Part shown: one piece after another, positions 8,203 through 62,543 of the stretch
How positions within the stretch are numbered: position 1 is the first letter of the stretch
Layout: each line of letters begins with the position of its first letter
From: Ectocarpus siliculosus
Taxonomy: Eukaryota; Sar; Phaeophyceae; Ectocarpales; Ectocarpaceae
Reading direction: 5' to 3'
Length of the DNA stretch: 64,000 nt
Assembly (NCBI GenBank): GCA_000310025.1
Contig: FN647938.1
Span: 71,798-135,797, forward strand
Made by a program: the position numbers and the translations under genes
The notes under the pieces: generated by a model
What the model was told of the DNA's origin: nothing
The model's input: only the letters and a program-made list of their open reading frames with translations
The model's database searches: none

Positions 8203-11200
8203 CTACGGAAATTTCGGGTCCACCAGGGAACAACATGCCCGCCAAAGCCGTTTCGCCGACTACCACAACATGTCAAGACTGCCCCCGACGGGAACAGCGC
8301 ACTCACCGCGATGAGAAGAGCCAATACGAGAACCACGCCCCCGATGGAGGGAAGCGACTGCCCCCAATACAAGTTGCGGCCACCGAAGTCGTTCGTGTTG
8401 GACACGATGATGGACTTGGTGCCATCGTAGTAGTCCACGATGAAGTTGTTGGACACATCGAAGGACAAAGTATCCCCTTCATTCAGACCGTCATCGATCC
8501 TGGATCGAACGGTTCGTCGGGAAATGAATTATTTCGCCACTATTTAGAGGTTGATCGTACGAGACCGTTCCAATGGAATGTTAAGATAGTGCTTATAAAC
8601 TAAAGAACGTTGTTCTTCTCGGCGTGCGGATGTCACAGAGGGTTGATCAAAGTGCGCATAGGTATTTTCCGACCGAAACGTAAGGCTTGGAGTGCGCATA
8701 GGTATTTTCCGACCGACACGTAAGGCTTGGAGGCACAGAGAGATAAGGGAACAGGCAGGAGAAAGCCATGCGGAAAATGAAAATGGTGCATTACCATTGC
8801 GCCAAGAATCCAATGAGTCACTACGACCGTCGGCCTCCAACGCGTGTCCACAGAAAGACAAAAAGGTGACCGTGGGCAGAAGTACCGGCCCGGTCACCTC
8901 AGAAGACATTAAAAAAAAAGTATAGCATGGCTGGTACGTTGTGGCGAAGCTCACGCGGGAGGCATCATCTACAATATAGAGCACCGTAGCTGAACAAAAC
9001 CTTTTATATCTCCTTGGAATCAGGGTCGATTTCATGTTGGTAGTAAAATAGTATATTGCTGAAGTCTGGGTACCACAAACTACAAACGGTAGGCAGTGTG
9101 ATCCCTCTGATTCCCTTCTTCAAGCCCCTGGGATGTTCCCGCAGAGTACCCCGCAGCAAGACAAGGATGGTGGCAGTGTAACCAACGCTGCTACATTGGT
9201 ATCATCTATTAATAGCTTCAGAAGCTATGACGGATCGCACTGCTGCATGTAGCGACAATATTACAAGTGTTTGCTCTACATTCACAGAATGACAACATAC
9301 TGAATTTGTTGGGAATGTTAGACCCGGTACACTGGACAAAACTGAAAAGGGGGTGTGTATTTAGTGCGGACCGATAAAACACAATTCGGTGAATTTGTGT
9401 AATTTCTAAACACGACCAACGGCGCAAATGCCCCAAACAATAATTCTCACGCCCCGCCACCCTACTCGCGCCATCCATCCCTTTCGAATCTAGGAAACGA
9501 TGGAGCTATCGACGAAGATTACGGCTCGCAACACCCCACAATATCCCTCACAAATCAGTCCCATCCTCTCGGGGTACGGTAAGGCTGGAGGAATGAACCC
9601 ATAAATCAGAAATCGGGAGGGTGCAGAATAAACGAACAAGACTCACCTGCCGTAAAGCTTGCGAAATGAGGAAAGCCCCGATACCCGCATCCAGACGATG
9701 AAGTGCTCGTTTTTGACGCCGTCCAGAGGGCTAATCACCTTCGAACAGAAACAAATATCGACACAGCACACTTTCGAGTCATAGAAAACATGGCTTTTCG
9801 AGCCAAAAGTACCAGCGACAGCGCTGGGATCGAATCGATTCCCCATGATATAGTCTGGGAAAAGGCATTCGAGACCCTTACTTTCCAAGTTGGTAGACGT
9901 TGCAACGAACATGACTGATACACCACCTGTTTCACCGACAACAGATGGCCGCCATTGTCTGCTCGCAACGCAAAAACCGTAACTGTCTCCCATGCCAAAC
10001 CAGTCGTGCTTCATTCCTGTGTCGAGACGGCGCCGTGAGCAACTGGAGAACACTGCCGTTACTGGAACTTACGCAGAAGTCTACGGCATGGTGATGTGCG
10101 TCTTTTTCAGTCACCTCTGGGAACGTCTCGTAAAGGTACTGGGTAGTGTCCTCGTCGGGGTAGTAGTAGGCTGTCGAGTCCGTCACGCCGCAGCCTTCGA
10201 ACGTCGTTCCCCCGTCGCTGTCGGTGAGGCTAGTGGCACACAAAGGCCGCAAGCGCCACATAAACATACGCCCACCGACATTGGAACGACGCCATGGCCG
10301 ACAAGTGAGGTACCGGTCACGCGGGTATGTGTACAAGGACCGCACATGCACCGCACAGAAAGGTCGGAAACACACCATGGAAACCAACGCAATGCACTGC
10401 TTGACAACGACCAGTGTATGGCCATGGGAGAGGATATTCGACAAGTGAGATCTAAAGGCCCGCCATGACATTGGAGCGGGTATCATACGGGTGGTTGGGT
10501 CTCAGCGCATCTGCACCACCGTCTACCACACATCCTACGTTCACAAACCCTCTTGTGTACAGTATCCCCAGAGAAACAGCGGCGGCATACCATAAAACGT
10601 GAAAATGCGTTGAAAGCTCCATTCCCGTCACAACAAAATCATCTCATAATCCAGGCGGCAGCGTCGTCTGAAACATATGGCCCTACCCAGGTCTATCCAC
10701 TCCCAGCCCAGCAAAAGCTACCGCGGCGCATGGTGAACTCCTCTGTGGTTTGACGCTGAGTTCTCACCCTGCATCCGTGAGACAGGCTACACACCCATCT
10801 TCGTCTTCGCAAGCGGTCGTCACGAAACCATCTGGTTGGACGAACTGCAGGGGGATCGACAACGTGCGGTGGACATCGGGTGGTATAGAACGTGTCACGT
10901 GATGTCAAATCACTAGTTGCATCGTTTCGCCGCGAGGGCGCAAGCTCGACCAATCGACTGTTCGCACAAAACTCGCATTGAAAACGAACTTCTTCTCTTC
11001 TTCTTGTCTGCCAACTCGGACGATTCTAGAACCATTGTGGTCTTGACAGCAACTACAGTGCCGCAGACCAAGGTTGGGGGCGAGACGAAACGATCTTGTA
11101 GCATGCATAGCTGATTCAGGTTACATCTCAAGCTCGAGGGAATGCAGCAAAACATGCAGCTTGCTCCATTGTTCGCGGGCAACCCAAGAGCGGCGATAGG

Positions 11201-36098: not shown

Positions 36099-39000
36099 CT
36101 AAGCGCTTCGGACGAGAAAAAGGCACAGGTCATGCACCTCAAGTGGGCGTTTGAACCAAAGAACGGGGCTGGCGAGCATGGCATTGAGTAGCAACCTTTC
36201 GCACGCTTGAGCGGACGGCAACAACTGCTGAACCAACTCCACCTGTAGGCAACCACACAAGTGTTCTCGCGGGCGCCTTCCGGTGGTGGTGGGCGGTTTA
36301 TTGGGGTCGGTGGTCTCCAAGACATTACTCCTTTGGATTATCAGCACGTGCTGCGGTGTCCGTCAGTTACCTCCACAGTTTTGCTCTGGGGTTCATATTG
36401 AGGAGTTACGGGGACCTTCACCCATGTGGGCTTCGAAAAGTTAAACTAAAACAACTGATTTTCATTAACGGCCAGGCATCCGGTTGACTGGAATGCCATG
36501 GTGGTTCTTAGCTGTTTCTATGTCTTTGCTCAACCCTTGGGAACCCCTGTAAAGAAAGGCGAACTTTCTGACGGTCTGGTTAGGAACTGCAGTTTGGATA
36601 CTTACGCTGCTTTCCATGCAGAAACAAACTGTTCCTTGATGATACGGCTGAACGATTTCGAGCGTGACTGGGTTCTTTCTGGATCTTCCGCGTTTTTTTT
36701 TGTTCTGCCGGGACCGAATAGACCGATGAGTCATGAGACACACACACACGACACCTGCACTTGAACGTTTGCACGTTTGTTTGCGCACCAACAGGTTCCC
36801 ACATGGGTCAACCGCACGCACCCCATGGTGCCACAAAGGTTTAGTGCCCAACAGCAGCGTAACCCTCACGTGAAGAATGTGATGAGTGACCGATAACTAC
36901 ACTGACTGCTGTACTGCTGTATGTAGGTGCTGTCGGAAACCGGAGGAGAGAGAGAGGAGAGGGCGCCGTATTTCTTTACCCCAAACACGATTACATGGTG
37001 ATAGTCTACATGGATACAGCAGCAGCAGTAGAGATACATCGCATGCACAGCAGTTCTACCCCGCCGCCGATGCAGCACACTGGCGCAAGGCATGGCACCG
37101 CCTCCAATGCCACTTGGTTGGGTGGTAAATCCAGCGGAGACAAGAAGCACACACGCACGCGGTTTGTTTGTTGGATGCATGCATGCGAAACGAAATGAAA
37201 AAGCACCAGGCAGCAGCAGCAGCAGCCCGCCGCAGCAGCAGCAGCAAGCACGAGCCGCGCGAGAGATAAACTATGCCTTGTGGTGGCGGTTGGTTGAAGA
37301 CGGACAAGGAATACACTCGAACACACACGCGCGCAGGAGAACTCGGGGAGAGGCCTCGTAAGCTTGGCCTTCAGTTCTGCAACCACATTCCGAAGGCAAG
37401 GAAGAAGGCACACAAGTCAACAGCGAGAGCATGCTTTATCGTACCAGATAAAGACAGGTTTTATCATGCCTCCTATCGTGCCTGTAGTCACGAAAACCCT
37501 CTCAAAAACGCGAAGGCACGGGGGCGGGTGTCTCTTTTTGACACTTTGTCACTCCGCCACAGCCTGCCAGCACAACAGCAGCAACAACAGCAGTACAGCA
37601 GTACCAACATCACCACCATGGACCCAGAGGACATCGCTCAGTTCTGGGAGGCCAAAGCGGCTGAGTGGGACCCAGTGAATGCTCCCCTAGTTGTGTGGGA
37701 CGAGCTGGTTCTCATCGCGGACACAACACCCCAGCTCCTGCCCGAGGCGACATCTGCTGCAGCCAGGGCGGTTGGGAAGCGGTTCTGCTGCCACGGGGAC
37801 AACGAGCCCCAGCCCCTCCCAGACATAAGGGACCTGGCAGCAAGGAGGACCGCAGCTCAGCAGCACCCCGGACTCTGCGGGTACCACCACTCCCGCTGGA
37901 TCGGGGATGTAGATTTCTCAAAGGCAGCCGAGAGGAGCTCGGGGGGGCAGGTCACAGCGAAGCGTCTGAGGAATCAAGTAAGTATAGTACAATTGATATT
38001 TGGCAACCCCACAAATGATGGGCTGCTGACCCAGATCGGTTGTGCACCTGCTGTGCGCGTTGCACCTCGTGTATTATAGGTGTGCTTCACGTTCAGCTTT
38101 GTTTGACATGGTGGCTTGTAAGAGTGCTACAACAGCAGTACACTAGGCCCACAAACTTCAACCTGGACTAACGTGCGTGTGTTTTTCGAGCCTGCGGATC
38201 AATGCAGCTGCCAGACAGATCATATCACCACACGAAGTAGACAGGAAAGAGGGATGAGAGACCTGAAAGACGCGTTTACAGCAACCCTATCCCTATGAAC
38301 CTCCGCAATGCTCAGCAAATGCTCTGGAAAGACAAGCGGCGCCCAGCGCGTCGACTCCCCTTTTGAGACAGATATGGTGTTATCTTCCGTATCAGTTAGG
38401 TTGGAGACTCTCCCATTTCGTACGAATAGGCTGGCAGCCCGCAGCTTTGTACTCCCCGCATTAGACAGTAGTAGGGGTAACGATGTACTGGGGAGGCCGA
38501 GCATAATTTTCTGTCTTGTCCGAAGTTAGGTTTTGTAATCCGAACGGGCGGTTAGTAGTCCGAACGGAGAAAAAGACGCACGCGCCGCCCCATTGCGTGA
38601 ACGTCTGTCTCTCACAGATACTGCATGCCACGTAACGTTTGTTGGCTCTCCATTTTCCCACGAAAGACTGGAGTGCACGCTCTAAAAAAACAAGCCTACG
38701 TCGTCGTTTTTTCCCCCGCAACGTGCAGGCTTCGTTCGACGTGAGCACCCGCCTCAACGCGAGGGGTCGTGGCGTTCAAATCACGAGGAGGGACTGCTTC
38801 ACGCAGGCGTGCCGCGCGGTGTGGCCGGGAGACGAAGCCATACCAGCGGCCATTGCGGAGGCATTGTCGTGATTCTCGAGCGCGTGTTTTAGGCTGATCA
38901 TGGAGCCTGAGGGGTGGGGTGGGGGGGTGGAGAGGGTTTCGTACTTACAAGAGTTTCGAGCAGACCCTCAAGGTTTGCGCTTGGCTAGTTTGCAGGGCGT

Positions 39001-42000
39001 CGTGCCCCCGCATGACTTTGAGTTCGCTGGGTTTGTCGTTCAATTCGCTGGGGTTATTTGGAGAAAGAGTGCTGCAAGGCACAACTCGGTGGAACAACCG
39101 ATGGTGCAATGGTGTGATCTGAAAATTCCGTATGTTTCGTCGCATGTTGCAGGCGCACTCGCCGGGAGATGTGTATTGCATTTTCGCAGAGATCAGCGCC
39201 TTGGTTTCGAGATGAAGAAATGGAATAAACATGGAACAAATGATCTTGCAAGTATTCACGACTTGATCGCATGAAGGTCTCCGGAATGTCTGTCATTGGC
39301 ACACGGTTGGATTCCGATGCCGTTTGCGGTCTCTGAACTACTGGTGAGCACCACCGGCACGTGGTGTGTATGACGTTGTCGCACGAAAGGACTAGACTAC
39401 ACCGCACGCAGTGAAAAAACTAAAGTGCCAGGAAAACGTTGTTTATCTAGATGCCGAAGACTTCTTTCGATTTTATCTGCAAACCTTGGTATCTGCAAAC
39501 CTTGTACACTTCGTACTCCATTCCTTGTCTACGTGCGAACATGTCTGTCGACCAAAGCACGGGATACCGACGCCAAACCTAAGGCTCTTGCCACATAGGT
39601 TTCGGGTTAAAAACGACACACAACGAGCGATACACGAGCCGTGGCTAATCGCAACAACACTGACAGTAGTTACAAGCGAATGGGGGCTAAAGGGGGGGGG
39701 GCTAAAAACTCACTACCGCAGGTGACACCGCCGGCGCCCACCAACAGTTGCCCGACAAGCACTCTTCACCGCATATCCCGGAGGACGCTTCAGACTCTAA
39801 AGACACACGCTTTCAGAAATAGCGCGGAATAAAAGACCTACAATATTGTGATTCAGTAACTTGCACTTTATCTCGCAAGGATGAAAACGATCGTACTTCG
39901 ACCGCTACATGATACAGATGGGTGGTAAACAAGTACACAACACAAACGCCCCACACTATAATACCACTGCTATCGGGAAGACACAACAGGTAAACGACGG
40001 AGTAAAACATTTTCATGACGGACGGGAAGATGATGCGCTACGATCAGTCTGCCTGCCAAAAAATATGTCAAGGGACCCTTACACGAGTCGATCCCTGTTT
40101 CCTCCGCCCGAAACACTCGCAACAACAACAAAAAACGGTCACGAGCACCAGTTCATATCCTTCCGTGTCCTTTTTCCGAACTTCGAGGCCTCCCGTTCAG
40201 CCCGTGCGGCCCTAGCGTGCCTCGCCGGGTTCTCGAAGCATCCCTTGCACATCAAAACCCCCCCGCCCCCCTCCCGCCCTGCACCGCAGAACGCCTCGCA
40301 GGCACACCCTTCTCTTGTCGTTTTCTTGCATCCGGGGTACATGCACTTGCGTTTTGTCTTAATGTGAACGCTCCCCCAAACGTCCTTCGGGGGTTCCGTA
40401 TCTTTGACCTGTCTCCCCCCCTTGTTGAGGCTACCAACACCGCACCTCCCCATGAGCTCCGTCGACATCTGTTCGTCCCAGTCCGACCTCTCAAGATTGG
40501 CCAACCTGCGGAGCTCCTTCACCACTCCCTCCAACTCCATCGACGACTCAAGGTCTAGGTCTCCTCTCTCGAGCCTCTCCTTCGCTTCACCGTCCCAGAA
40601 GGCTACCAAAGCCTTGAACATCACGAAAATGTTGGTGAACGTCTGCTCAATCTTGGCCTCCATCACTCGCCGCCAGTAGTTCGTGCACGCCTTGTGGTCA
40701 TGGGCGTGGGAACCATTCTGTTGGTCGGCCGTATCTACTCCCCCCATGTTGGCCACGTAATCCTTACGCATCCACGGCTGCTGTAGCTCCATGGGTTTCC
40801 CCTTCTGCCCAGCTTTGCGCAGGCTGGACACGCACGAAAAGGGGCAGGCAGGCGGGGGGCAGGCGGAACACATGGGTCAGGCACCACACTTGCGGCTGCG
40901 GCGACGACGAACTGGATGGAGGTCGTCGGACGTAGCAACCTATTTTTACCCCGGCGTAGCATCAGCCCCTGTCAACACTACAATGCTCAAGCCCCAAGCA
41001 CGTTCCCGGTCGGTGAGAACAGCCTGTGTGACGAACCGAATACTAAAGGCATGAACCCGAGCCGCTGCATTTTGGCAACACCAAACTTTGAACTCCATCA
41101 ACCTTTGCACGAACNNNNNNNNNNNNNNNNNNNNNNNNNNNNNNNNNNNNNNNNNNNNNNNNNNNNNNNNNNNNNNNNNNNNNNNNNNNNNNNNNNNNNN
41201 NNNNNNNNNNNNNNGGCGGCCCTTGTTCTACCGAGGCAAACCTGCAGACCCGCGGACATCGCACTAAACCCGCAGTGGCCATCCGGCTTTACGGTATACA
41301 CACCAGCGCGGTCGGGCAAGACCATAACCCTCCCACCTCTTGTCAATTCTGTGCTGCAAATGATGCGCGACGCAGATCCATCGATGTGCTGCTGTACCCG
41401 TTGGCCCAACGCAGCCGGCTGGGGAGCTAGCTCCTGTTCCTTGCGAACGTGATACACAGGAACCCCGTCCATAGCGCTCGTGCGAAAAATCGCAACAAGC
41501 AGGAGGAAAAACAGCATCATTATCGCGTTTCTGCGTGCTGGACTGAGGTCCACAGCAGCACAGCAGCAGCGCGGGATGCAGGGTGCTGCGGAGCATTGCA
41601 ACTCCCAGGCTTTCAATTTTCTGTATAGGGGACGTGCTGTTTCTGTCCCCGGTCGTTACTTTGTTTCTTTTCGAGCGGTCTAGTCGTACCGTCGAGCCGT
41701 CGTCGACGCAGGTATCCACAGCTCAATTCGGTTCGAAAGTTGTCGCATATAAGAGTTATCGTGCCTGCTAACATGCCCGATTCGGGGGTGTAGTCACGTA
41801 ACTGCGTTGATATGTACATGTTATCCACAAGGCGCGGCCGGAGCAGCGATGACGAGATGCACGGTGAGACAAGGGAAAGCGAACTCTTGGACGTTGAGCT
41901 CACTGCCACCGTTCAGCAGCAAAACTCACCTTGGCATGCCACCCTCGTCCTCGCCGTCGTAGTCCTCGGTTAAGCAATGTCGGCTGAGGCTCCTGTTACG

Positions 42001-53909: not shown

Positions 53910-54264
53910 TCCTGTACGTCCTGTGTGACTCCGGCTGATACGCTGATACGTCGAACATATATACATATCATGTGTGTAGGCTAGCTTGGGCTAGCACCAG
54001 AATAAATGACGCACACACACCCTTTGAGTGCGCTGTGGGAACAGGAAATATGCTGTGTCACCACATCGGCTGATACATACTCTGTAGACTGACTACCCTG
54101 CCGTCGCATCCAGCAATAGACACCAGACCCAGACACCAGACACGCGTGCGGCGTAACCAACTACTCCTATAATAATAGACATACAGGTACTTTCTGACGC
54201 TATGACTTCATTGCTAATCCGTCTCAGACTCTATGACAGAGATAGCTTCGTTGTGTCATTTTAA

Positions 54265-54277
54265 CCCTTTCGTGACT
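54265..54277 (+). repeat. piggyBac left terminal inverted repeat
   Basis: ccctttcgtgact directly after TTAA 54261-54264. Confidence 0.92.
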
Positions 54278-55224
54278 GGGTTCTTTCTGGATCTTCCGCG
54301 TTTTTTTTTGTTCTGCCGGGACCGAATAGACCGATGAGTCATGAGACACACACACACGACACCTGCACTTGAACGTTTGCACGTTTGTTTGCGCACCAAC
54401 AGGTTCCCACATGGGTCAACCGCACGCACCCCATGGTGCCACAAAGGTTTAGTGCCCAACAGCAGCGTAACCCTCACGTGAAGAATGTGATGAGTGACCG
54501 ATAACTACACTGACTGCTGTACTGCTGTATGTAGGTGCTGTCGGAAACCGGAGGAGAGAGAGAGGAGAGGGCGCCGTATTTCTTTACCCCAAACACGATT
54601 ACATGGTGATAGTCTACATGGATACAGCAGCAGCAGTAGAGATACATCGCATGCACAGCAGTTCTACCCCGCCGCCGATGCAGCACACTGGCGCAAGGCA
54701 TGGCACCGCCTCCAATGCCACTTGGTTGGGTGGTAAATCCAGCGGAGACAAGAAGCACACACGCACGCGGTTTGTTTGTTGGATGCATGCATGCGAAACG
54801 AAATGAAAAAGCACCAGCAGCAGCAGCAGCAGCCCGCCGCAGCAGCAGCAGCAAGCACGAGCCGCGCGAGAGATAAACTATGCCTTGTGGTGGCGGTTGG
54901 TTGAAGACGGACAAGGAATACACTCGAACACACACGCGCGCAGGAGAACTCGGGGAGAGGCCTCGTAAGCTTGGCCTTCAGTTCTGCAACCACATTCCGA
55001 AGGCAAGGAAGAAGGCACACAAGTCAACAGCGAGAGCATGCTTTATCGTACCAGATAAAGACAGGTTTTATCATGCCTCCTATCGTGCCTGTAGTCACGA
55101 AAACCCTCTCAAAAACGCGAAGGCACGGGGGCGGGTGTCTCTTTTTGACACTTTGTCACTCCGCCACAGCCTGCCAGCACAACAGCAGCAACAACAGCAG
55201 TACAGCAGTACCAACATCACCACC

Positions 55225-56480
55225 ATGGACCCAGAGGACATCGCTCAGTTCTGGGAGGCCAAAGCGGCTGAGTGGGACCCAGTGAATGCTCCCCTAGTTG
55301 TGTGGGACGAGCTGGTTCTCATCGCGGACACAACACCCCAGCTCCTGCCCGAGGCGACATCTGCTGCAGCCAGGGCGGTTGGGAAGCGGTTCTGCTGCCA
55401 CGGGGACAACGAGCCCCAGCCCCTCCCAGACATAAGGGACCTGGCAGCAAGGAGGACCGCAGCTCAGCAGCACCCCGGACTCTGCGGGTACCACCACTCC
55501 CGCTGGATCGGGGATGTAGATTTCTCAAAGGCAGCCGAGAGGAGCTCGGGGGGGCAGGTCACAGCGAAGCGTCTGAGGAATCAAGTAAGTATAGTACAAT
55601 TGATATTTGGCAACCCCACAAATGATGGGCTGCTGACCCAGATTCGGTTGTGCACCTGCTGTGCGCGTTGCACCTCGTGTATTATAGGTGTGCTTCACGT
55701 TCAGCTTTGTTTGACATGGTGGCTTGTAAGAGTGCTACAACAGCAGTACACTAGGCCCACAAACTTCAACCTGGACTAACGTGCGTGTGTTTTTCGAGCC
55801 TGCGGATCAATGCAGCTGCCAGACAGATCATATCACCACACGAAGTAGACAGGAAAGAGGGATGAGAGACCTGAAAGACGCGTTTACAGCAACCCTATCC
55901 CTATGAACCTCCGCAATGCTCAGCAAATGCTCTGGAAAGACAAGCGGCGCCCAGCGCGTCGACTCCCCTTTTGAGACAGATATGGTGTTATCTTCCGTAT
56001 CAGTTAGGTTGGAGACTCTCCCATTTCGTACGAATAGGCTGGCAGCCCGCAGCTTTGTACTCCCCGCATTAGACAGTAGTAGGGGTAACGATGTACTGGG
56101 GAGGCCGAGCATAATTTTCTGTCTTGTCCGAAGTTAGGTTTTGTAATCCGAACGGGCGGTTAGTAGTCCGAACGGAGAAAAAGACGCACGCGCCGCCCCA
56201 TTGCGTGAACGTCTGTCTCTCACAGATACTGCATGCCACGTAACGTTTGTTGGCTCTCCATTTTCCCACGAAAGACTGGAGTGCACGCTCTAAAAAAACA
56301 AGCCTACGTCGTCGTTTTTTCCCCCGCAACGTGCAGGCTTCGTTCGACGTGAGCACCCGCCTCAACGCGAGGGGTCGTGGCGTTCAAATCACGAGGAGGG
56401 ACTGCTTCACGCAGGCGTGCCGCGCGGTGTGGCCGGGAGACGAAGCCATACCAGCGGCCATTGCGGAGGCATTGTCGTGA
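55225..56480 (+). CDS. Unknown accessory protein of the piggyBac element (copy 2)
   Basis: Same two-exon gene as in copy 1: 55225-55584 and 56337-56480, phase 0, 167 residues, with no amino-acid change seen. An upstream frame (54880 on) is longer but lies in CAG-repeat-rich leader; the caccATGG start at 55225 is preferred. That both exons and the splice sites are intact in both copies argues that the protein matters to the element, although the copies are young enough that decay might not yet show. Function unknown. Confidence 0.6.
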
Positions 56481-57746
56481 TTCTCGAGCGCGTGTTTTAG
56501 GCTGATCATGGAGCCTGAGGGGTGGGGTGGGGGGGTGGAGAGGGTTTCGTACTTACAAGAGTTTCGAGCAGACCCTCAAGGTTTGCGCTTGGCTAGTTTG
56601 CAGGGCGTCGTGCCCCCGCATGACTTTGAGTTCGCTGGGTTTGTCGTTCAATTCGCTGGGGTTATTTGGAGAAAGAGTGCTGCAAGGCACAACTCGGTGG
56701 AACAACCGATGGTGCAATGGTGTGATCTGAAAATTCCGTATGTTTCGTCGCATGTTGCAGGCGCACTCGCCGGGAGATGTGTATTGCATTTTCGCAGAGA
56801 TCAGCGCCTTGGTTTCGAGATGAAGAAATGGAATAAACATGGAACAAATGATCTTGCAAGTATTCACGACTTGATCGCATGAAGGTCTCCGGAATGTCTG
56901 TCATTGGCACACGGTTGGATTCCGATGCCGTTTGCGGTCTCTGAACTACTGGTGAGCACCACCGGCACGTGGTGTGTATGACGTTGTCGCACGAAAGGAC
57001 TAGACTACACCGCACGCAGTGAAAAAACTAAAGTGCCAGGAAAACGTTGTTTATCTAGATGCCGAAGACTTCTTTCGATTTTATCTGCAAACCTTGGTAT
57101 CTGCAAACCTTGTACACTTCGTACTCCATTCCTTGTCTACGTGCGAACATGTCTGTCGACCAAAGCACGGGATACCGACGCCAAACCTAAGGCTCTTGCC
57201 ACATAGGTTTCGGGTTAAAAACGACACACAACGAGCGATACACGAGCCGTGGCTAATCGCAACAACACTGACAGTAGTTACAAGCGAATGGGGGCTAAAG
57301 GGGGGGGGGCTAAAAACTCACTACCGCAGGTGACACCGCCGGCGCCCACCAACAGTTGCCCGACAAGCACTCTTCACCGCATATCCCGGAGGACGCTTCA
57401 GACTCTAAAGACACACGCTTTCAGAAATAGCGCGGAATAAAAGACCTACAATATTGTGATTCAGTAACTTGCACTTTATCTCGCAAGGATGAAAACGATC
57501 GTACTTCGACCGCTACATGATACAGATGGGTGGTAAACAAGTACACAACACAAACGCCCCACACTATAATACCACTGCTATCGGGAAGACACAACAGGTA
57601 AACGACGGAGTAAAACATTTTCATGACGGACGGGAAGATGATGCGCTACGATCAGTCTGCCTGCCAAAAAATATGTCAAGGGACCCTTACACGAGTCGAT
57701 CCCTGTTTCCTCCGCCCGAAACACTCGCAACAACAACAAAAAACGG

Positions 57747-60700
57747 TCACGAGCACCAGTTCATATCCTTCCGTGTCCTTTTTCCGAACTTCGAGGCCTC
57801 CCGTTCAGCCCGTGCGGCCCTAGCGTGCCTCGCCGGGTTCTCGAAGCATCCCTTGCACATCAAAACCCCCCCGCCCCCCTCCCGCCCTGCACCGCAGAAC
57901 GCCTCGCAGGCACACCCTTCTCTTGTCGTTTTCTTGCATCCGGGGTACATGCACTTGCGTTTTGTCTTAATGTGAACGCTCCCCCAAACGTCCTTCGGGG
58001 GTTCCGTATCTTTGACCTGTCTCCCCCCCTTGTTGAGGCTACCAACACCGCACCTCCCCATGAGCTCCGTCGACATCTGTTCGTCCCAGTCCGACCTCTC
58101 AAGATTGGCCAACCTGCGGAGCTCCTTCACCACTCCCTCCAACTCCATCGACGACTCAAGGTCTAGGTCTCCTCTCTCGAGCCTCTCCTTCGCTTCACCG
58201 TCCCAGAAGGCTACCAAAGCCTTGAACATCACGAAAATGTTGGTGAACGTCTGCTCAATCTTGGCCTCCATCACTCGCCGCCAGTAGTTCGTGCACGCCT
58301 TGTGGTCATGGGCGTGGGAACCATTCTGTTGGTCGGCCGTATCTACTCCCCCCATGTTGGCCACGTAATCCTTACGCATCCACGGCTGCTGTAGCTCCAT
58401 GGGTTTCCCCTTCTGCCCAGCTTTGCGCAGGCTGGACACGCACGAAAAGGGGCAGGCAGGCGGGGGGCAGGCGGAACACATGGGTCAGGCACCACACTTG
58501 CGGCTGCGGCGACGACGAACTGGATGGAGGTCGTCGGACGTAGCAACCGTTTTATTTCACCACATGAAAAAATGGAGGAGCGTGGTCCAACAGTCAGAAC
58601 GCTCGAAGTCTCCGACGGGTAAAACTCACCTGATGTGCCACTTCGAATCGAAGTCCGGGTTAGGGGTGTTGTCCTCGTCCAACAATCGAGGAGGAGCGTT
58701 GCCGTCCGAGCAGTGGATGAAACGGCAGTACAACAGCTCGAACAAGTCACGCGGCATGCACGCCCTCACTAGAGGATAGTCGTCGTGCAACGATCTACTC
58801 CAGTGCTTCCTCATGCGCGTTTTCTTGGTGAGCCCCATCGTGATCGTGATGCCCAGCATGCCGTAGATGTGCTTGCGCTCGAATGCGGGTTCCGGCAGGG
58901 TGACCCTGCCTAGAGTTCTCGTCTTCTTCATCTGATGCTCCTTGCGCTTCTCCGTAGCTCCGGGGGGTGGTGGTGTGGTGCAAAGGTTCACGTACTTGTT
59001 GGTCTGGAAAAGTATCACGTTTCGCGCGGAAGAGGTCAGGGACAACAAGACGGAGCGAAGATTAGCATATTCGCCCCAGAGGTCGCGCCGAGGTGTCGTA
59101 TATATACACAATGATTGTTGATGCAAGCCGTGGCAGCACAGACATGTTTGATTAAATTAATCCGCATATGCCTTCCGCGGGTGTCTTGGAACGTAAGCAA
59201 TACCGCAAGGGGCCACAACAGACTGTGTTCTCAGGCATCTACCTAGTACCCGCTTTCAATTGTTGGGTTGGTCGGGTGGATATCGGTAATCAAATTACAA
59301 CATACATAACAGGGATCCCGCGCGCTGGATAGGGGGGGGGGAGGGTGCTTCTCTACAGGGAGTACATTCCGCGGTATTGCATCCGCCCTTGCAAACCACC
59401 CCATGCACGATACGCTGGTACGTAGCACGTCAGGAGGGAAGTATGCATGAACACCGCATAAACCCCCGTGTGTTTGACAATCTTGATGAGCTGTGATCTA
59501 CATTCGGCCAGTATGATTAGGCGACCAAGGCATGCAGACGACATCATGCAGTGTAAACACCAACAAAGGGCATACAATTCATCCCGCCCCCCCCCCTCCC
59601 CCCCTTCCCGCGGAACTACTTTCAAGTCCGACGCATAACGGCTCGGTCTCTTACTTGCGTGCAACCCCCCTACTGAGTTGTTCGAGTGCAACTTAATAAG
59701 GAATGCGACCACACGAAAACACCAATGCTCACCTTTTGCACGAAAAGATCTACTGCCTTGTCGGGGAACATCATGTTGAAGCACGTCTTCATCAAACCAC
59801 TCAGCGGGAACTCTCCGTTCTCGTCGCGGCCGCCCATGAAGGTATCGAGAGAGGGCAACTTCGATCGCGCGGACGCCGACAGCGAAGCAGCGCTGACCGC
59901 TTGCCGCCGGGTTCTCTTCTTGTGGTCCGTCGTTCCCGCAAAGTCAGGAATGCCGCGGTCAGTCCACGCCACCTCCGGGTACTCCTCCGCCTCAGCTTTC
60001 AACTCCTCCTGCTCCTGCTGCTGCTGCTTCTCTAGCTCCTCTCTCTCTTGTCGCTCCTCCTCCTCCACCTCCTGCCGCGGCCGAAGCTGGTTTTCTTTTT
60101 CCTTTTCTGCCGCTTTCTTGAGCCTCTCCTTCTCCCTGTCGCGTATGGCCTTGAGCTGGGTTGAGCACGTCGTCGGCAAACAGCGGAAACAGAGCGGCAG
60201 GTGTGTCAATTCATACCCTGCCGTGTTGTGTTCAATCATCCCGAAAAAAAATAAAGTCGTACGAGGCGACGGTGTCACTAACACCTACGAATCGAGCGAG
60301 CGAGAGATTCACATGAAACTGACACGGCGATCAAAAGTAACACCATACAGGGCCAGTAGGGTGTTCAGGTCACGCACATGCATTTACATACTCCGAATCG
60401 TGAACTCGACATTCGTTGCCCCCCTGCCAACATTGGAAACCACACCCGTGTTGAGCAACAGGAGCCAGGCACGGAGGCGTCAACATGATCATGCAAGCAA
60501 CCAGGTGCTTTTTACCAACACTTCTAAGATTATTTTTGGTAGAGACTAGCGACCACACGAGGCGAAACAAAGTGCCTACCTAGACACGCGTTTGTTCAGC
60601 GTTGATAGGGCACTCTCTACTCGGTATTCCAAGCGAAAAAAAAAACGCAAGAAACTGCTACAGCAGTATTGATTCGCACTATTTATCGGACTCAACTTTT

Positions 60701-62207
60701 GCACCACCATAAATCGTCGTCTTCTCTTAGGTCCGCCTATTCGCCTGGAAAATGCCAAGAGAAAAGTCTACACGAACACAAACCCACCTTTTAGACCCCG
60801 CGCCCTCCTCTTGTTGCTCAGCAAGTACGCCCGCCTGTACTTGAGCTCCTGGATCTTCTTCATGGCGGCCACCACCTTCTTCTCGTTCTGCGACATGCTA
60901 GCGAAGGAGCCCTGGGTTCGCTCGTGGTCCCCCCCCCCGATGCTGCCGTCGGAATCATAGTTGGCTTCGTCTACTTGGCCGTTGCTCTTCACCGATTTCC
61001 TCCTACCCGTCGGCGTACTCTTGCATTTCTTTGCGGCACCCCTCCCCTCCCCTGGTGCACCCCCCGCCTTGCGCTTCCCCGGCACACCAACCGCCTTGCG
61101 CTGCTTCCCCGGTGCACCCCCCGCCTTGTGCCTCTTGCTGTCCCCTGGCTGCCTCTCGGTTGGTCGCTTCACCCCGACCTTACTCCCGATCTTCGCCTTG
61201 CTTTTCTTTCCCGCTGCAGCCTTTCCCTCCGCTTGCCGGCTGCTGCTGCTGCTGTTGTTGCTGTTGCTGCCGCTTGGTCTCATGCTGAACTCGGGATCGT
61301 CCACCTCTTCTCCGTCCACCTTTGCGGACCCTGGCGCTTTCTTCCCGGCCGTGGCGCTCGCCGACGGCACCGGCGCCGCCATTCCTAGCGCTTTCTCCTT
61401 TGCAACTCTGACGACATCGATGAAGGAAGTATGTACGTTGAGTCCAAGCTGCAGACGGTCGAAGTGGTTGTGCTGTTTATGGCCTGCCTCACCTACACCC
61501 TCGCGCGCTGCCCACGGATCGTCGTGTTTCCGATAGAGCAGATGCACCCAGCGATCCCCCTCCTCGTCCATTTTGTCTTTTTTCTCGAACAAGAACATGC
61601 CTGCCGTGAGGGCTGCTGAGTACGGCTGAACTGTGCCGTACGTGGGGCTTGGCTCCCACAACATGATGTTCACCCCGTACTCCGACGCCAGAAAAGAGAA
61701 CCAGGTCACGTCAATCCATTTTGTTGTTGCACTTAGCTGGGCTTTCTCGCGAAACCAACCGACCGTCTTATCCTCCGGCGCCGTCATTTCTTCCACGGCA
61801 GCTCCTAAAACATCCGGTATACGCACACTCCGGGCCCGCCCAAGCTGGTCTGGTGAGAGTACAGCTGTCAAGTCCTCAACACCGGATGCGCCAAGAACAT
61901 GTTCCGTGGCTCGACGGGCGACCACGCTCCTCATGTTCTCTGGGGTGGGGGCGGCCCTTGTTCTACCGAGGCAAACCTGCAGACCCGCGGACATCGCACT
62001 AAACCCGCAGTGGCCATCCGGCTTTACGGTATACACACCAGCGCGGTCGGGCAAGACCATAACCCTCCCACCTCTTGTCAATTCTGTGCTGCAAATGATG
62101 CGCGACGCAGATCCATCGATGTGCTGCTGTACCCGTTGGCCCAACGCAGCCGGCTGGGGAGCTAGCTCCTGTTCCTTGCGAACGTGATACACAGGAACCC
62201 CGTCCAT
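57747..62207 (-). CDS. OTU-like cysteine protease fused to piggyBac transposase (DDE core deleted)
   Basis: Exon 1 (62207-60788, 473 codons plus 1 nt) begins MDGVPVYHVRKEQEL. An OTU-type nucleophile motif, KPDGHCGFSAMSAG, has Cys at about residue 67; the helix NMRSVVARRATEHVL follows; the likely catalytic His is in WVHLLYRKHDDPW (about residues 222-228). Then comes a Lys/Arg-rich tail with GAPGK/KAGGAPG repeats. Exon 2 (60217-59733) joins in phase 1: an E/K/Q coiled coil, then MFPDKAVDLFVQK. Exon 3 (59003-58630) has TNKYVNLC, IYGMLGITITMGLTKK, YCRFIHCSDGN, the N-terminal piggyBac transposase region. Exon 4 (58431-57747) has MGGVDTADQ and the Cys-rich end. Exon 3 to 4 stays in frame but skips the part with the first two catalytic Asp residues. 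An earlier in-frame ATG pair (about 62258) would add a hydrophobic leader. The fusion is inferred from splice phase. Confidence 0.75.
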
Positions 62208-62526
62208 AGCGCTCGTGCGAAAAATCGCAACAAGCAGGAGGAAAAACAGCATCATTATCGCGTTTCTGCGTGCTGGACTGAGGTCCACAGCAGCACAGCA
62301 GCAGCGCGGGATGCAGGGTGCTGCGGAGCATTGCAACTCCCAGGCTTTCAATTTTCTGTATAGGGGACGTGCTGTTTCTGTCCCCGGTCGTTACTTTGTT
62401 TCTTTTCGAGCGGTCTAGTCGTACCGTCGAGCCGTCGTCGACGCAGGTATCCACAGCTCAATTCGGTTCGAAAGTTGTCGCATATAAGAGTTATCGTGCC
62501 TGCTAACATGCCCGATTCGGGGGTGT

Positions 62527-62539
62527 AGTCACGTAAGGG
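62527..62539 (-). repeat. piggyBac right terminal inverted repeat
   Basis: agtcacgtaaggg, followed by TTAA 62540-62543. Confidence 0.92.
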
Positions 62540-62543
62540 TTAA

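Follow-up and report, generated by a model that had tools for sequence, protein, structure and literature searches.

A piggyBac transposase gene that probably opens with an OTU-like exon

On the minus strand of a 64,000-nucleotide stretch of Ectocarpus siliculosus DNA (contig FN647938.1, positions 71,798 to 135,797; hereafter the window) lies a copy of a piggyBac element whose predicted transposase gene begins with a domain resembling ovarian tumor (OTU) cysteine proteases (Table 1). An original prediction, made from the letters alone, had pointed to a minus-strand open reading frame (ORF) with the motif KPDGHCGF; this frame was borne out, as were the N- and C-terminal piggyBac pieces that had been described downstream of it. 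When these pieces were checked against the Pfam profile DDE_Tnp_1_7, as that prediction had proposed, the match at 58629–59003 lay above the cut-off and the match at 57750–58484 below it (E values in Table 1). The bounds first drawn for the feature, 57747–62207, proved too narrow, with the element ending at 54261 and 62543.

Table 1. Predicted features of the piggyBac element, in window positions
Feature	Position	Strand	Basis
Whole piggyBac element, window copy	54261..62543	-	8,283 bp including TTAA at both ends; terminal inverted repeats; sister copies align
Left end: TTAA, then terminal repeat CCCTTACGTGACT	62527..62543	-	End sequence read
Exon 1: OTU-like domain, basic low-complexity linker, conserved C-terminal transposase-family segment	60788..62255	-	Open frame; start and donor by comparison; extra A just before donor
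OTU-like domain as aligned	61440..62207	-	Cys67 at 62009-62007, His248 at 61466-61464
Exon 2: charged, coiled-coil-like segment	59733..60155	-	Acceptor CAG/CTC and donor AAG/GTG in common with other copies
Exon 3: N-terminal part of DDE_Tnp_1_7 match	58630..59003	-	Pfam E 3.8e-5; splice ends
Deletion junction: 1.7–1.8 kb with the YDEQM and AMDNYF exons gone	58547..58548	-	Comparison with sister copies
Last exon (start approximate): GGVDTAD motif, Cys-rich C terminus, to stop codon	57747..58431	-	Pfam E 0.02, below cut-off
Second gene, exon 1 (protein without assigned family), facing the transposase gene	55225..55584	+	Sequence comparison
Second gene, exon 2, with stop	56337..56480	+	Sequence comparison
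Right end: TTAA, then terminal repeat CCCTTTCGTGACT	54261..54277	+	End sequence read

The gene model rests on a comparison of copies within one genome (189 Mb in 492 contigs), which is the scope of all family comparisons given here. In family A, to which the window copy belongs, and in the loci L014, L015 and L017, exon 1 ends at the donor AAG/GTG (AAA/GTG in L015; the slash marks the splice point), exon 2 starts CAG/CTC and ends AAG/GTG, and exon 3 starts CAG/AC and ends ATC AG/GT (ATG AG/GT in L015). By this comparison the predicted introns have phases 0, 0 and 2, in place of the 1, 0 and 2 originally read. Exon 1 of the window copy ends CTA AAA GGT, with one A more than the CTA AAG/GTG of the eight other A copies, and this extra base explains the phase-1 donor and the acceptor at 60217 of the original prediction; that acceptor is replaced by the CAG/CTC common to family B, so that exon 2 runs from 60155. 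Outside A and B, the exon-2 acceptor also occurs in one A' copy (L016), and the pattern was not matched in L023 or L024. The phase-0 donor of exon 1 is common to A, B and C; within group C it was found in L028 and L030, both of which also have the exon-3 donor, and L028 has the exon-3 acceptor as well.

Translation probably starts at the upstream Met at 62255. In every A' and B copy where the stretch was found (three of each), a Met occupies this position, and the later Met is replaced by Val in L016 and by Ile in L017. The predicted N terminus so included (62207–62255), MMLFFLLLVAIFRTSA, is hydrophobic and signal- or anchor-like, which is odd for a nuclear enzyme; a similar stretch is present in A' and B copies, and the OTU-less L028 has a different hydrophobic N-terminal stretch.

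The arrangement recurs in related families

The transposase cores listed from the genome (n=27) fall into family A (12 cores, 96–100% identity), A' (three, 81–83%), B (four, 64–69%) and C (eight, 45–49%). An OTU match lies upstream on the same strand at all 12 A cores (partial in C24), at 2/3 A' cores, at 3/4 B cores and at none of the eight C cores, giving 17/19 for A, A' and B together. As the query was the A protein, the search could have overlooked an OTU in group C that has diverged strongly. The two exceptions, C474 and C234, retain no more than the later portion of exon 1, and the 2.7 kb upstream of each held no OTU match at an E value below 0.7.

Between families A and B, identity is 33–37% across the OTU-like region (L014, L015 and L022 compared) and 64–69% across the core (four cores). 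L014 and L017 show the exon order of A, namely OTU-like exon, exon 2, exon 3 and YDEQM exon; in L015 the OTU-like exon and exons 2 and 3 are followed by the core and the final exon; from L022, the OTU-like region alone was used. The pairing of OTU-like and piggyBac parts in the original prediction was upheld, with order, exon ends and phases recurring in family B, but neither its exact splice model nor a complete transposase in the window copy stood.

Exon 1 of family A ends YDSDGSIGGG...AAMKKIQELKYRRAYLLSNKRRARGLK. Three of the eight group C loci were read, of which L028 and L030 have an exon 1 without the OTU-like region and L029 has no recognisable exon 1; tblastn of A and B OTU sequences against all three produced no hit under E 0.1. 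At the position and phase of this A segment, L028 and L030 carry YDSESELGGG and, after it, a related stretch with KLPKPK as its end (tblastn E 0.002 and 4e-4). Because OTU-less relatives share this end segment, the OTU-like domain of A lies in a single open exon with a segment belonging to the piggyBac clade. These comparisons support the reading that a piggyBac family has incorporated the OTU-like domain into its transposase gene, at the N-terminal end. A gain of the domain in A and B would look the same as a loss in C, and it would take an outgroup to tell the two apart.

One of the OTU-less loci probably carries a nested insertion: the final exon of the group C piggyBac in L030 is broken up by ORFs (8309–9653) that look like a retrotransposon polyprotein.

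Motifs of the N-terminal domain

OTU proteases are marked by a Cys loop, DGxC, and a downstream H-(F/Y)-(D/N), a description that agrees with the OTU sequences met in this analysis. In a four-row alignment of the family (A1), D64, G65 and C67 are invariant and the Cys loop reads DGHCGF or DGSCGY in 4/4 rows, with NHFD(R/W)L following 181 residues past the Cys in 3/4; the loop is also kept, as DGKCGW, in the three A' copies. The original prediction had placed a candidate catalytic His about 155 residues past the Cys. That residue, presumably His222 (WVHLLYR, +155), is invariant in all four rows, but we judge His248 in NHFDRL, at +181, to be the likelier candidate.

We further scored the domain with a three-block OTU score, trained solely on OTUs of this genome and of the PDB, against 1500 shuffles of each sequence. 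L014 scored 27.1 (0/1500 shuffles as high), L024 24.1 (1/1500) and the window 20.1 (1/1500); one fragmentary A' ORF from L024 (224 residues) reached only 6.3. Ranking the 118 ORFs of at least 200 residues in the fetched DNA by this score placed three recognised OTUs at the top, followed by family members (20.4–27.1), with the next ORF at 14.2.

A match to SidE_DUB (E 0.03–0.09, below the cut-off) was set aside as probably due to chance. Scans of viral contigs detected no relative of the piggyBac OTU-like domain, nor of a Helitron-type OTU from this genome.

Ends, copies and defects of the element

The window copy has TTAA at both ends, inverted repeats of 13 bp with one mismatch that start CCC, and a DDE_Tnp_1_7 core, all of which are features of piggyBac. 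Genome-wide, the exon-1 protein matched 59 pieces, ten of them at 99–100% identity over at least 474 residues, which argues that the KPDGHCGF exon is not a chance ORF. Nine A copies, the window included, were compared over their first 2.2 kb, and seven of the other eight differ from the window at 0–5 of about 2,199 bases; C25:4435097 shows 99 differences from C53, 94 of which fall within the last 100 bases, where C25:4435097 breaks off. The four sister copies fetched in full are 99.3–99.9% identical to the window. Among the five A copies read at both ends, TTAA is found on both sides in three, on one side in C66 and on neither in C12; the terminal repeats of C12 and C66 are intact even where TTAA is missing (both ends of C12, left end of C66). 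At their insertion points C53 and C24 have in common a stretch of about 140 bp that is 89% identical, suggesting that both landed in copies of another repeat. As read from its copies, family A has been mobile recently.

The window copy is itself defective. Between the positions matching window 58547 and 58548, the copies C53, C66 and C57 contain an extra 1.7–1.8 kb, and all three possess AMDNYF, DEQM and GGVD, motifs (YDEQM, AMDNYF, GGVD) whose Asp residues we take to be catalytic as in piggyBac. Of the three Asp motifs the window copy retains the last, GGVD, and has lost the two before it. Since the exons with these two motifs are deleted, the window copy cannot make a complete transposase; without the full set of three it represents a defective copy of a piggyBac family member, and we rejected the view of it as a complete element given the 1.7–1.8 kb missing relative to C53, C66 and C57. 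C12 has its own deletion in the same region and is without AMDNYF and GGVD. Between its TTAA sites C53 spans 10,104 bp, and its exon-4 region and last exon each lie in two frames, so it was not taken as intact; its core exon matches DDE_Tnp_1_7 at E 3.2e-12, and that of L017 at E 8.8e-14.

The window also holds a second, shorter copy of the same element at 36663–41801, identical over 99.95% of 4,279 bp and 100% of 587 bp. This copy has lost more of its interior, with the 58548 breakpoint in common, and its outermost bases are missing at both ends.

Constraint on the OTU-like region

The ratio of nonsynonymous to synonymous substitution rates (dN/dS) of the OTU-like region is 0.15–0.22 between A and B, where dS is close to saturation. 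For A against A' it is 0.61–0.68, the A' copies having stops or frame breaks and being in decay; between the two A' copies it is 0.40, and within B it is 0.71–1.10 on few changes. These values support long-term conservation of the region but do not show recent constraint.

A second, facing gene

Facing the transposase gene is a second, conserved gene of two exons, predicted to encode a protein of 167 residues that had no Pfam match at E values up to 1. Genes related to it occur on the downstream side of elements of A, A', B and C, and elsewhere in the genome too. As these include the OTU-less C elements, the second gene is not tied to the OTU.

Weighing the interpretations

We consider it rather probable, on the sequence evidence, that the element is a piggyBac transposon with two genes and that its transposase bears an N-terminal OTU-like cysteine-protease domain encoded in exon 1. 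The narrower claim, that the domain is an OTU or an OTU-like thiol protease, we hold with good confidence. A body of results weighs against these readings. Profile searches with Pfam, NCBIfam, PHROGs and PDB named no OTU, so that the refuting check proposed at the outset turned up no OTU on its profile side, and the PDB search of the domain returned one weak, unrelated match; PF02338 run over the whole genome gave 10 matches, 0 of them in these piggyBac elements. In an unfiltered hidden Markov model search, the six family rows took places 4 to 14 of 306, outranked by the best of the 300 shuffles; hhalign aligned the Cys loop alone, and a single-sequence fold model, with a mean predicted local distance difference test score (pLDDT) of 31.8, was too poor for a fold search. 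The three-block score owes much to the Cys loop, the motif by which this finding had been selected; when blocks 2 and 3 alone were set, in a rough comparison, against the best triples of the shuffles, they were reached by 871 (window), 112 (L024) and 11 (L014) of 1500. The family B row L022 has Tyr in place of His248. Finally, in-frame ATGs near the exon-2 acceptor make a separate transposase start possible.

The absence of any profile match to OTU, together with the weakness in family A of the blocks other than the Cys loop, would fit a fusion with a different N-terminal domain, either a thiol hydrolase of another kind or a domain for binding DNA or protein that has an OTU-like DGxC loop by chance. 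The loop, however, is kept in A, A' and B, and in L014 so few shuffles reached the blocks outside it that we regard this explanation as unlikely. To the same degree improbable, in our estimate, is an element with two adjacent genes, one for an OTU-like protein ending soon after exon 1 and the other for a separate transposase starting in exon 2, which would move together without forming one protein. Such a layout draws support from a stop about 12 codons past the exon-1 donor in C53 and from ATGs in frame before or at the exon-2 acceptor in both A and B, but the positions of these ATGs differ between the families while the donor and acceptor phases do not, and the C-terminal segment of exon 1, common to OTU-less piggyBacs, stops at the donor. 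A chance pairing, by insertion of a piggyBac into an OTU-like gene or by a nested insertion that joined the two once and was then copied, would be in line with the near-identity of most A copies, as a single event may be copied many times; we rejected it as highly implausible, because family B, at its much greater divergence, has the same order and phases and because a single exon holds the domain along with transposase-family sequence.

A possible role at the transposition complex

If the transposase does carry an OTU-like protease, exon 1 would be spliced to the transposase exons, and the domain would adopt a papain-like OTU fold using Cys67 and His248. The piggyBac core cuts and pastes at TTAA, and the core encoded here would do so in the ordinary way, with the OTU-like part tethered to it by the long basic low-complexity linker. 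From there, the OTU-like part may free the transposase of ubiquitin, or do so for host proteins that collect where transposition takes place, the outcome being slower degradation of the transposase or changed repair signalling. The likeliest benefits would be a transposase sheltered from the proteasome, or a hold over ubiquitin-directed repair at the excision site. In its full form, the proposal is that a piggyBac lineage gained (or kept) an active N-terminal OTU deubiquitinase that strips ubiquitin at the transposition complex, and that one or more of the families bearing it have spread recently; judged from the sequences, we put the chances of this at about even.

Were this so, the element would be a further independent case, after Ginger1 and the Helitrons, in which the mobility enzyme of a DNA transposon has been combined with a ubiquitin-family protease. 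Because this genome also contains relatives that lack the OTU, what the domain adds could be tested directly by comparing transposition with and without it, or with its Cys changed, in a superfamily that is already a laboratory tool.

Comparison with known transposons

With the piggyBac superfamily (DDE_Tnp_1_7), the element shares the TTAA target, short terminal inverted repeats that start CCC, the core and a Cys-rich C terminus; it differs in its added N-terminal OTU-like domain and facing second gene, and in C53 it reaches about 10 kb. The original prediction knew of no described OTU–piggyBac fusion, and our literature search likewise returned no paper whose listing describes one.

A survey of Ectocarpus transposons recorded four piggyBac families (PMC12477816); 'ubiquitin' and 'ovarian tumor' are absent from its main text. 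The same survey describes TcMar-2_Ec32, which resembles our element as a brown-algal DNA transposase with an acquired N-terminal domain (EsV-1-7, a motif that has proliferated in brown algae) but belongs to another superfamily and has another added domain (PMC12477816). A search for EsV_1_7_cys gave 150 scored matches out of 880 first-look candidates in the genome analysed here and none in 14 control genomes, which makes a brown-algal source likely.

Closer in kind is Ginger1, in which a DDE transposase is also joined to an added protease domain, OTU or Ulp1 (PMC2836005). Ginger1, however, combines a Gypsy-type integrase core with a C-terminal protease, whereas the element described here has a DDE_Tnp_1_7 core and its OTU-like part at the N terminus, and so falls outside Ginger1. 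Helitrons and Helentrons likewise bear deubiquitinase-type domains, OTU and VTD, on a transposon protein (PMC9741609), but they are rolling-circle elements. This genome has Helitron-like helicase ORFs ending in an OTU, at L032 1162–3000 and L033 280–921 (both matching Pfam OTU) and at L034 804–2000 (from the genome-wide PF02338 search), for which the Helitron label, taken from the helicase-like ORF, is putative; their OTUs are recognised by Pfam, whereas the piggyBac domain is not. Roles in ubiquitin removal resembling those proposed here are in print for both Ginger1 (PMC2836005) and Helitrons (PMC9741609). Given that OTU domains are known on Ginger1 transposases and in Helitrons, the pairing with piggyBac is new as a variant rather than new in kind.

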